Shown one piece after another: positions 217 through 12,233 of a DNA stretch of 12,233 bases. The stretch is taken from the NCBI GenBank assembly GCA_023512255.1, contig JAILZY010000099.1, forward strand, positions 1-12,233. The letters run 5' to 3'. The notes under the pieces were generated by a model. That model worked only from the letters and a program-made list of their open reading frames with translations. It did no database searches and was not told the DNA's origin. The position numbers and the translations under genes were made by a program. How positions within the stretch are numbered: position 1 is the stretch's first letter; each line of letters starts with the position of its first letter. This stretch comes from a bacterium. GTDB taxonomy: Bacteria; SZUA-182; DTGQ01.

Positions 217-2112
217 ATGATGAAGTATGATGTAATTGTCGTCGGTGCAGGACATGCTGGCTGTGAAGCTGCCCTGGCTAGCGCCAGGATGGGATGCAGC
301 ACTCTCCTTCTGACCATGAATCTTGACGGTATTGCCTACATGGCTTGCAGCCCGTCCATCGGCGGGCTTGGCAAGGGCCACTTGGTGAGGGAAATCGACG
401 CCCTGGGCGGTGAAATGGGCAGGGTAGCGGATAGGACCGCCATTCAGTTCAAAACCCTAAACACCAGTAAGGGCCCGGCAGTTCAGGGGTCGAGGACCCA
501 GAACGATAAGCTTCGCTATCATATGGTGATGAAGGAAACCTTAGAGAAAGCTCATCAGCTCCATATCTGCCAGGGGATGGTTGAGGAGCTTTTGGTGGAT
601 GGCCAGCGGATTTTTGGGGTAAGGACACGGGTACAGGGTGAGATTTTGGCCCAAGCAGTGATTTTGGCTACTGGAACCTATCTGCGAGGACTGGTGCACA
701 TTGGGACTGAGAGTTTTTCTGCCGGACGAGCCGGTGAGTTTTCTGCCGAGGGGTTAGCCCGGAATCTAGCCAGGCTTGGCTTTCAGATCGGCAGGCTGAA
801 GACCGGCACGCCTCCACGGCTTCGCCGCTCAACCATTGATTTTTCCGCTATGACCCCTCAGCCAGGAGATGATTCTCCTCGGCCCTTTTCCTCATCTACC
901 ACCTGCGCCGAACTTCCGCAGCTTCCCTGCTACCTTACCCAGACTAACGATAAAATCCATGATTTGATCCGAAAAAACATTCATCTTTCGCCCCTCTACA
1001 ATGGGACAATTACCGGCATCTCAGCTCGCTACTGTCCCTCCTTGGAAGATAAGGTCATGAAATTCCCTGAGCGGCAAAGCCATCAGGTGATTATTGAGCC
1101 CGAAGGCCTTGAAACTGAGGAAATGTACGCTAGTGGCCTTGGCAATAGCCTCCCCTACGAGCTTCAGGTGGCCATTGTCCACTCGGTCAAAGGTCTTGAG
1201 GAGGCCCAGGTTATGAGACCAGCCTATGCCATCGAGTATGACTTTATCTTTCCTACACAACTTAAGCCGACCTTAGAAACCAAGCTGATCGAGGGCCTTT
1301 ACCTGGCTGGTCAGATCAATGGCACCTCAGGCTATGAGGAGGCCGCGGCTCAGGGGCTTTGGGCCGGAATCAATGCCGCCCTGGCGGTGCGTGGGGATGA
1401 ACCCTTTATCATGGACCGCTCGGAAAGCTTTATGGGGGTTTTGGTGGATGATCTGATTACCCGGGGAACCCGTGAGCCTTACCGGATGTTCACCTCAAGG
1501 TCAGAATATCGGCTCATCCTCAGGGAGGATAATGCCGATCTGCGGCTTACGGAAAAAGGCTATCGGCTTGGCCTGGTCAGCCAGGAGCGCTACGAGCAGG
1601 TCAGGGAAAGGGAGCGAGCCGTTCGCCTGGGGCTAGAATGGCTCGGCTCGGTCAAGATTTTGCCTAATGTGGAAACAAATCAGGCTCTGGCCAGATTGGG
1701 TTCGGCGCCGCTTCAAAAAGTAGTCAGCCTGAAGGAAATCCTAAGACGCCCTGAGCTCAGGTTTCAAGATTTACAGTCTCTGCCTGCTCATCAGGCCTGC
1801 GGCGGCTGGCCCTCTGTCTGTTTAGACCCTGAAGTAGTGCGCCAGATCGAGATTGAGGCAAAATATGAAGGCTACATCCAGCGCCAGATGCAAGAGATCA
1901 GGCAGTTTCAAAACCTGGAAAGAGTCAAGATTCCACCTGACTTTGACTACCAGAGATTGTCAGGCCTATCTAACGAGCTGAAGCAAAAACTCACCGACAT
2001 TCGCCCTATCTCTCTCGGCCAGGCATCCCGGATTTCGGGCATGACTCCAGCGGCTCTTTCCGTGTTGATGATTCACCTAAAAACCAGGAAGGCATTAGAA
2101 AAATCGCTCTGA
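217..2112 (+). CDS. mnmG: tRNA uridine-5-carboxymethylaminomethyl modification enzyme MnmG (GidA)
   Basis: The FAD-dependent partner of MnmE. The MnmEG complex adds the carboxymethylaminomethyl (or aminomethyl) group at C5 of the wobble uridine of certain tRNAs, in the cytoplasm. The 631 residues match the usual family length. The N-terminal Rossmann motif GAGHAG is at residues 10-15, followed by [13 protein letters not shown], the LKTGTPPRL segment, the [10 protein letters not shown] signature with the conserved Cys at 273, and [17 protein letters not shown] at about 364-380. The C-terminal helical part fits the MnmE/tRNA-binding region. The start is at 217 or 220 (adjacent ATGs) and no Shine-Dalgarno is visible, only A/T-rich sequence. 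A perfect 10-bp tandem duplication spans the start codon. The classical neighbours (mnmE, rsmG, parA/parB) are absent; mtgA follows after 93 bp. Confidence 0.97.
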
Positions 2113-9349: not shown

Positions 9350-9562
9350 GGAAAGCAGGGAGCTATGGGCTGGCCACAGCACAGCAGGGAACTATGGCTG
9401 GCCACAGCACAGCAGGGAACTATGGCTGGCCACAGCACAGCAGGGAACTATGGGCTGGCCCACGGCAGGAGCTATGGATAACTGGCAGGGCCATTGCCCC
9501 TGGGAAGAGGGCTGGCTACAGCAGGGAGCTATGGCTGGCCCACGGCAGGAGCTATGGCGCTT
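9350..9562 (+). repeat. 28-bp minisatellite downstream of the OmpA-family gene
   Basis: Three near-identical 28-bp units begin GGCCACAGCACAGCAGGG (9372, 9400, 9428), flanked by degenerate partial units. A 23-bp segment starting CTGGCCCACGGCAGG and ending CTATGG occurs exactly at 9455-9477 and 9535-9557. Units share GCAGG(G)A(G/A)CTATGG and the palindrome TGGCCA. Period 28 is not a multiple of three, so translated frames rotate through the array, which argues against protein coding. There are no unique spacers, so it is not a CRISPR array. Function unknown. Confidence 0.85.
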
Positions 9563-10445: not shown

Positions 10446-10524
10446 TTCTGTTGTCTATAACAAAAACAAAAAACTTGGGAAACATCTGGATAATTTAATA
10501 AGAAGCAATATAGGAGGTAACAAA

Positions 10525-12233
10525 ATGTTTTGGTCAAGAAATTGTATTATTGGCTTAGTAGTAAAATGGGCAATAGCTTTGATAGTAACATTAGGAGCGA
10601 TCTGGACAATGGGAGGCCTGGTAGGCTTTAGGACAATTTCCGGGCAGATGATTCCAGGGCAGAAAAGAGGCGAAGCTTGGGCAGCAAATTCATTTTTTCC
10701 TGATAGCGGACAAATCAAATTTACTCCTGGCCCATCTGGTACTCAGCTGTTGGGGCCAGATTCTATTCCCCTAGAAATCCTGCCTCAAGACTTAGTGTCA
10801 AGTTATATCCCACCCGATACCAAACCACAGATCAAATCCTACACTAGTGCCCTTCCCTCAGAAGCCCCACCTCAATTTGTCTGGACAATCCCTGAGCCAC
10901 CACCCCAACCATGGTATTTCAATTATCCTTGTGGTCTTGCGGTTGATGGCAGTGGCAATGTCTATGTGGCTGACACTTATAATCATCGGATCCAGAAATT
11001 CAGCTCATCAGGGGAATTTTTGGCCAAATGGGGATCTTTTGGCCAAGAAGATGGGCAATTTTGGGGTCCTCATGCCCTTGCGGTTGATGGCAGTGGCAAT
11101 GTCTATGTGGCTGACACAGGGAATGATCGGATACAGAAATTTAGCTCATCAGGGGAATTTTTGGCCAAGTGGGGCTCTCGTGGCCATGAAGATGGGCAAT
11201 TTGAGTGGCCTTATGGCCTTGCGGTTGATGGCAGTGGCAATGTCTATGTGGTTGACACAGGAAATGATCGGATACAGAAATTCAGCTCATCAGGGGAATT
11301 TTTGGCCAAGTGGGGATCAGAGGGCCAAGAAGATGGGCAATTTGCCGGTCCTTATGGCCTTGCGGTTGATGGCAGTGGCAATGTCTATGTGGCTGACATA
11401 TGGAATCATCGGATACAGAAATTTAGCTCATCAGGGGAATTTTTAGCCAAATGGGGAGCCTTTGGCCATGAAGATGCGCAATTTGTTTTTCCTTTTAGCC
11501 TTGCGGTTGATGGCAGTGGCAATTTCTATGTGGCTGACACAGGAAATCATCGGATACAGAAATTCAGCTCATCAGGGGAATTTTTGGCCAAGTGGGGCTC
11601 TCGTGGCCATGAAGATGGGCAATTCCGGTATCCTTTTGGCCTTGCGGCTGATGGCAGTGGCAATGTCTATGTGGCTGACAGAGATAATAATCGGATACAG
11701 AAATTCAGCTCATCAGGGGAATTTTTAGCCAAATGGGGAGCCGCGGGTTCAGAAGATGGACAATTTTCTTATCCTTGGAACCTTATGGTTGATGGCAGCG
11801 GCAATATCTATGTGGCTGATAGTAATAATCATCGGATACAGAAATTCAGCTCATCAGGGGAATTTTTGGCCAAGTGGGGATCAGAGGGCCAAGAAGATGA
11901 GCAATTTTGGTATCCTTATGGCCTTGCGGTTGATGGCAGTGGCAATGTCTATGTGGCTGACACATGGAATAATCGGATCCAGAAATTTAGCTCATCAGGA
12001 GAATTTTTAGCCAAATGGGGATCTTTTGGCCAAGAAGATGGGCAATTTGATGGCCCTTGTGGCCTTGCGGTTGATGGCAGTGGCAATGTCTATGTGGCTG
12101 ACACTTATAATCATCGGATACAGAAATTTAGCTCATCAGGGGAATTTTTGGCCAAATGGGGATCTTTTGGCCAAGAAGATGGGCAATTTGATGGCCCTTG
12201 TGGCCTTGCGGTTGATGGCAGTGGCAATGTCTA
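10525..12233 (+). CDS. NHL-repeat beta-propeller protein, 3' end beyond the window
   Basis: The frame is open from ATG 10525 to the window edge (569 codons plus two bases) with no stop, so the gene is partial. The start is firm: AGGAGG at 10512-10517 is seven bases upstream. A hydrophobic N-terminal segment (about residues 9-34) is a signal peptide or membrane anchor. A possible signal-peptidase site at AWA-ANS (about residues 54-58) sits rather far downstream of it. A Pro-rich linker follows to about residue 130. From residue 138 there are nine full 47-residue repeats plus the start of a tenth. Each contains LAVDGSGNVYVAD, then N-x-RIQKFSSSGEFLAKWG, the classic NHL blade. NHL propellers usually bind protein, carbohydrate or other ligands outside enzymatic contexts; the ligand here is unknown. 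Repeats are nearly identical at DNA level. More than six blades suggests more than one propeller. Confidence 0.92.
   Translation, partial: MFWSRNCIIGLVVKWAIALIVTLGAIWTMGGLVGFRTISGQMIPGQKRGEAWAANSFFPDSGQIKFTPGPSGTQLLGPDSIPLEILPQDLVSSYIPPDTKPQIKSYTSALPSEAPPQFVWTIPEPPPQPWYFNYPCGLAVDGSGNVYVADTYNHRIQKFSSSGEFLAKWGSFGQEDGQFWGPHALAVDGSGNVYVADTGNDRIQKFSSSGEFLAKWGSRGHEDGQFEWPYGLAVDGSGNVYVVDTGNDRIQKFSSSGEFLAKWGSEGQEDGQFAGPYGLAVDGSGNVYVADIWNHRIQKFSSSGEFLAKWGAFGHEDAQFVFPFSLAVDGSGNFYVADTGNHRIQKFSSSGEFLAKWGSRGHEDGQFRYPFGLAADGSGNVYVADRDNNRIQKFSSSGEFLAKWGAAGSEDGQFSYPWNLMVDGSGNIYVADSNNHRIQKFSSSGEFLAKWGSEGQEDEQFWYPYGLAVDGSGNVYVADTWNNRIQKFSSSGEFLAKWGSFGQEDGQFDGPCGLAVDGSGNVYVADTYNHRIQKFSSSGEFLAKWGSFGQEDGQFDGPCGLAVDGSGNV
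10936..12233 (+). repeat. Exact-period 141-bp tandem repeats inside the NHL gene
   Basis: Units start at 10936, 11077, 11218, 11359, 11500, 11641, 11782, 11923, 12064 and 12205 (truncated by the window). Every spacing is exactly 141 bp with no indels. The framework TCATCAGGGGAATTTTT is almost unchanged in every unit, including synonymous positions. Differences cluster in three patches: after the GNVYVAD box, after KWG, and around the Pro before LAVDG. From about 12014 and from 12155 the sequence is identical for more than 70 bp, which indicates very recent duplication or gene conversion. Confidence 0.95.

Follow-up and report, generated by a model that had tools for sequence, protein, structure and literature searches.

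The closest described systems are built from WD40 or NHL blades. The HNWD genes of Podospora anserina (het-d, het-e, and het-r; PMC1805685, PMC2873952, PMC12222747) carry near-identical WD40 blades that have the look of concerted evolution and in which a small number of interaction-face codons are hypervariable. A mode of unequal exchange or gene conversion combined with selection has been worked out for these fungal genes (PMC1805685, PMC2873952), and is hinted at for bacterial WD40 proteins (PMC5587647). HNWD proteins are intracellular HET-NACHT receptors with a predicted double propeller of 11 conserved and 3 cryptic blades (2 × 7), and their length polymorphism and recognition have been shown by genetics. 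Highly repetitive bacterial WD40 proteins (Hu et al. 2017, PMC5587647) likewise have frozen repeats with exceptions at interaction hotspots on the top face; NHL proteins lie outside that study. Recently amplified propellers (Pereira and Lupas 2022, PMC9218822; Afanasieva et al. 2019, PMC6805158) originate from single-blade amplification, independently in each lineage, and show high DNA identity; the word NHL is absent from the main text of PMC9218822, and a mapping of variable columns to ligand contacts was not found there. The NHL domains of LIN41/TRIM71, Brat, and Thin each form one six-blade domain of 47-residue, diverged blades, and LIN41 and Brat act as RNA binders in eukaryotic cells.

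Here, we describe an NHL-array gene at the end of the window, by which we mean the whole 12,233-nt stretch of bacterial DNA that was analysed. The gene resembles HNWD in its near-identical blades with few hypervariable codons, and the highly repetitive WD40 proteins in its frozen repeats with exceptions on one predicted face. In contrast to both, its blades are NHL; unlike HNWD, it has no HET or NACHT domain before the repeats, is expected to encode 12 blades (2 × 6), and is known from one sequence. Single-blade amplification with high DNA identity is shared with the recently amplified propellers, and the fold and 47-residue blades with LIN41/TRIM71, Brat, and Thin. The entry motif and the unit are those of 12-blade WPxLxQPWYF NHL proteins, a probable orthologous family whose blades are, however, more diverged than those of the window. 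We consider it probable that the blade framework has been homogenised while the contact face, a putative NHL binding face on what is likely an exported protein, has been diversified by selection.

Gene layout and relatives

The initial annotation placed the repeats at 10936-12233. The repeats are found there, but the gene begins upstream of that interval, at 10525, from where a single open frame runs to the contig end with no stop. The source assembly comprises 3.83 Mb in 172 contigs. The features of the gene are as follows:

10512..10517, + strand: Shine-Dalgarno AGGAGG, 7 nt upstream of the ATG, as read from the sequence
10525..12233, + strand: NHL-array gene, 569 visible codons, running open off the contig end without its C-terminus
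10525..10629, + strand: N-terminal hydrophobic segment, residues 1-35, a putative signal peptide or membrane anchor by sequence reading alone
10864..10935, + strand: entry motif APPQFVWTIPEPPPQPWYFNYPCG, common to 12-blade relatives of other phyla (WPxLxQPWYFxxPxG)
10936..11076, + strand: blade 1, patches 10975-10986, 11035-11055, 11062-11076
11077..11217, + strand: blade 2, patches 11116-11127, 11176-11196, 11203-11217
11218..11358, + strand: blade 3, patches 11257-11268, 11317-11337, 11344-11358
11359..11499, + strand: blade 4, patches 11398-11409, 11458-11478, 11485-11499
11500..11640, + strand: blade 5, patches 11539-11550, 11599-11619, 11626-11640
11641..11781, + strand: blade 6, patches 11680-11691, 11740-11760, 11767-11781
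11782..11922, + strand: blade 7, patches 11821-11832, 11881-11901, 11908-11922
11923..12063, + strand: blade 8, patches 11962-11973, 12022-12042, 12049-12063
12064..12204, + strand: blade 9, patches 12103-12114, 12163-12183, 12190-12204
12205..12233, + strand: blade 10, initial 29 nt, cut by the contig end
12151..12233, + strand: 83-bp exact repeat at the contig terminus, a copy of 12010-12092 and longer than any other exact repeat of the array

At least nine units had been claimed at exactly 141-bp spacing, and we find nine complete units (starts 10936-12064) followed by 29 nt of a tenth. The 47-residue unit reads LAVDGSGNVYVAD..., TRF scored the array at 1804 with 86% matches and zero indels, and the 47-codon register is unbroken. 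Pfam PF01436 (NHL repeat) matches nine stretches with 266 bits against a cut-off of 20 (E = 7e-82). The N-terminal 137 residues consist of the hydrophobic segment and a linker, with no Pfam domain found in them, and the encoded protein is probably exported. A PADLOC match to the defence kinase PD-T4-6 was rejected, as it covers only profile positions 363-431 and overlaps the NHL stretch, and Pfam detects no kinase domain in the visible part of the protein.

Among ~100 contiguous arrays in the fetched loci, which were picked by similarity to the window, those of 6 blades (n = 56) and 12 blades (n = 24) predominate, with few in between. The window gene carries before blade 1 the entry motif of the 12-blade proteins (PPQFVWTIPEPPPQPWYFNYPCG), and WPxLxQPWYFxxPxG is present in many 12-blade members from Nitrospirae, Desulfobacteraceae, Hydrogenedentota, and others. 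The contig ends in blade 10, and the complete gene probably encodes 12 blades in two six-bladed propellers. Three 12-blade arrays from several phyla (L042, L047, and L055) have a C-terminal legumain-like Peptidase_C13; the domain scores below the curated cut-off in L053, L044 is only a fragment, and the same-genus 12-blade homologue L033 lacks the domain. In the model of L033 (pTM 0.59), confidence falls at the junction of blades 6 and 7. In structural alignments, one ring spans residues 10-288 and the other takes in residue 560 and the extreme N-terminus, where residues 1-11 have pLDDT <50; the model is consistent with a pair of rings, with an N-terminal strand completing the second in the manner of LIN41.

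The genes upstream (transglycosylase, DUF4332, Pom-like, GreA, AI-2E, and OmpA-like) form a block that G001, a genome of the same genus, shares in colinear order. Synteny was used there as a test of gene age, and no NHL gene follows OmpA at the colinear locus of that genome, which makes the window gene lineage-specific at this position; G001 has 12- and 2 × 12-blade arrays elsewhere. A 1433-aa frame of G001 (L034, contig C33) combines two distinct arrays of 12 blades with Cu-binding_MopE motifs and has a dockerin-like end. Behind the OmpA-like gene of the window lies a GC-rich minisatellite with a 28-bp unit (9354-9477), and the same-genus counterpart (L123, 9021-9704) has another, apparently unrelated repeat-rich stretch. 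Further away, the 375-kb plasmid of Candidatus Chlorohelix allophototropha (NZ_CP128401.1; L161) has 30 NHL-like places by tblastn; several of its NHL-array genes adjoin FHA-domain, HTH, and Ser/Thr kinase genes, which suggests a dedicated sensing cluster.

Framework and variable columns

Across the nine units, 22 of the 47 unit codons are invariant, 10 vary silently only, four (2, 3, 9, and 12) vary slightly in few units, and 11 are hypervariable and carry nearly all amino-acid change; 32/47 residues are invariant. This per-site count confirms that change is concentrated in 11/47 codons, which form the three patches per blade described in the initial annotation: columns 14/15/17, 34/35/37 together with 40, and 43/44/46/47. 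The framework had also been called conserved even at synonymous sites. That claim was overstated: 22 of the 36 framework codons are invariant, but 10 are silently variable, and 'mostly frozen' is the fitting wording. Pairwise pN and pS are 0.015 and 0.151 in framework codons, and 0.438 and 0.391 in hypervariable codons. The variant pairings and reuse reported earlier are present, with SFGQEDGQF joined to WGPHA in unit 1 and to DGPCG in units 8-9, TYNHR shared by units 1 and 9, and TGNDR by units 2 and 3.

The mean DNA identity of the window units is 0.87, compared with at most 0.68 in every other array examined, and the array qualifies as a highly repetitive propeller in the sense of PMC9218822 (median blade identity >60%). 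A search of the phyla of three further genomes (G050, G032, and G013) found no second equally homogenised array. When column variability in the family was ranked from 38 other arrays, with the window left out, the five most variable columns were 46, 15, 44, 43, and 35, the same five as in the window itself. Nine columns with a family variability of at least 0.55 (5, 6, 24, 25, 27, 30, 31, 38, and 39) show zero variation in the window, and the remaining two at this level, 3 and 12, are weakly variable. Since these nine columns vary freely in the family, their freeze in the window reflects recent common origin and not protein constraint; together with the identity values, this upholds the proposed recent amplification or homogenisation. 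The ligand columns, by contrast, are already at family-level diversity.

An AlphaFold2 model of six window blades, built with an alignment of 27 related segments, is a closed six-blade ring (predicted pLDDT 97.4, pTM 0.94), as expected of a six-bladed NHL propeller, and its closest structures are the NHL domains of Thin (TM 0.92) and TRIM71/LIN41. The predicted strands occupy columns 45-3 (A), 9-13 (B), 18-22 (C), and 28-32 (D), so that every hypervariable column belongs either to the B-C loop or to the D-A connection. On the opposite face, the amino acids of the A-B loop (4-8) and the C-D loop (23-27) are invariant in the window. In the established propeller topology, the B-C loop and the D-A connection share one face. 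The strand assignment and this general topology support a location of the variable columns in the loops of one face of the predicted propeller.

The crystal structure of the LIN41 NHL-RNA complex names 14 RNA-contact residues (PMC5908797). We placed these on the repeat via the TRIM71 sequence, where the spacing of R564, R581, R611, K628, and D629 occurs once and 14/14 letters agree. All 14 contacts map to columns 14, 15, 43, 44, and 46 only, and 5/5 of these distinct columns are hypervariable in the window (P = 3e-4 for five columns out of 47); patch 2 (34, 35, 37, and 40) holds none of the listed contacts. By analogy, the variable positions would be the ones that an NHL propeller uses for touching its ligand, with RNA as the ligand not implied: LIN41 binds RNA in the cytoplasm, and shared contact columns prove neither ligand nor binding for the window protein. 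The adaptable binding surface suggested earlier gains support from variable columns that lie on one predicted face and include every column with which LIN41 touches RNA.

Selection, recombination, and other possible sources of the variants

At columns 46, 15, 44, 43, and 35, the nonsynonymous rate in the window exceeds the silent rate 4.4-fold when the latter is taken from the framework (P = 2.6e-5) and 2.75-fold when it is taken from all codons (P = 7e-4), where rates are minimum change numbers per site, changes are treated as independent, and the data are nine units of one incomplete gene. The ratio of amino-acid to silent change ranges from 2.1 to 4.4 by choice of denominator. As in HNWD, the excess of amino-acid change lies at codons of the interaction surface. 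As an independent check, we took 21 disjoint recent blade pairs, each at least 78% identical in DNA, from other genomes (14 arrays). In these, contact-column pN over framework pS is 1.76 (95% CI 1.27-2.29, arrays resampled), and framework pN/pS is ~0.3; the excess in the 14 other arrays indicates that the tendency is general and that the window is its extreme.

These ratios bear on the reading that the gene is an ordinary young propeller, in which one blade was recently amplified and the variable columns are unconstrained loop positions under neutral drift. Amplification of blades makes new propellers continuously (PMC9218822, PMC6805158), and the five most variable columns of the window are among the most variable of the family. 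Neutral drift, however, cannot push amino-acid change above silent change, which is what we observe in the window and at the contact columns of the other arrays, and the window shows no change in columns 5, 6, 24, 25, 27, 30, and 31, which vary in the family but lie off the ligand face. We therefore regard drift in a young propeller as unlikely. In codons with unchanged amino acids, silent differences in the window rise from 0.08 far from the patches to 0.16 beside them and 0.24 within, in small numbers. This gradient suits a homogenisation of the framework that stops at selected patches; as silent differences are raised inside the patches too, the rate alone may also be compatible with older patches or local hypermutation.

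The variants could instead be the product of assembly, with collapsed or chimeric repeats having largely made or distorted the variants and their pairings. The window assembly is probably short-read, and arrays of this kind are error-prone: Illumina assemblies of comparable HNWD repeats are reported to drop units or create chimeric ones (PMC12222747), and the contig stops inside the longest exact repeat (83 bp). An assembler can re-pair patch codons but cannot invent them; apart from the terminal repeat, no exact repeat within the array exceeds 69 bp, and the column pattern is seen again in other genomes' arrays, including one on a plasmid recorded as complete (L161). An artefact of this extent is quite improbable. 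Re-pairing of patches by the assembler is a genuine risk and weighs on the module shuffling proposed in the initial annotation. Incompatible site pairs exist, but the codon-level PHI test for recombination among units is not significant (P = 0.18-0.45). A nucleotide-level PHI signal (P = 0.001, one window size) was discarded, since it vanishes once each codon is treated as one character and hence reflects linkage within codons. Module shuffling among units is plausible but unproven.

Variants might also be supplied from elsewhere. Silent donor cassettes acting through gene conversion would fit patches that look mosaic across units, but a DNA search of the genome, from whose assembly repeats may be missing, gave no second copy, the best match to the array being 47 bp at 81% in another NHL gene; such a supply is very unlikely. 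Viral contigs searched with the array gave no match, and phages gave weak matches alone (<60% identity). The same genome contains a reverse transcriptase of the type found in diversity-generating retroelements (DGRs) beside a template/variable repeat pair (C113), and targeted mutagenesis by such an element could in principle rewrite the patches. The template aligns to the NHL array with a local score of 9, as against 9.5 for shuffles, i.e. no similarity; of the unit's adenine columns, 27 never vary, 19/42 variable columns are without an A allele, and the C113 template has its match in the lectin-like variable repeat next to it. With neither a template match nor adenine-directed change, we rejected a DGR as diversifier of the array, and targeted mutagenesis of the patches seems exceedingly improbable. 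The C113 element itself (L124, ~725-1426, minus strand) has a reverse transcriptase frame whose 5' part is the template repeat NASNTDNAWCVNFSNGSVNNNNKSNSYYVRAVRGG and, ~0.8 kb upstream, a lectin-like gene that ends in a variable copy, with ~12/13 differences at template adenines by hand count.

Proposed origin and meaning of the binding face

The reading that we favour, selection on the contact face of a homogenised array, would start with recently amplified or homogenised NHL blades, in all likelihood 12 of them arranged as two six-bladed propellers. Recombination between units, by unequal exchange or gene conversion, would keep the framework near-uniform and the 47-codon register exact. Diversifying selection, rather than mutation targeted to the patches, would keep the ligand-face codons, which sit in each blade's B-C loop and D-A connection, mutually different. 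The outcome would be a ring of similar blades showing combinatorial contact residues, i.e. a binding face able to change specificity fast, in the mode of the fungal HNWD sensors but built from NHL blades and probably facing outward. A much wider possibility, which we hold to be doubtful, is that exported double NHL propellers, some fused to C13, are widespread in bacteria and archaea, and that blade recombination with selection on contact columns gives them a heritable, fast-evolving repertoire for recognition of kin, phage, prey, or glycans, like fungal allorecognition receptors.

The design of a frozen framework with variable contacts, known from WD40 sensors, is here extended to the NHL family and, if export holds, to the cell exterior. 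Because variable columns match crystallographic contact positions, specificity would be readable from sequence. The rule of 6n blades is a testable constraint on how recombination acts, and young arrays like that of the window would allow the earliest diversification of a binding face to be measured directly.
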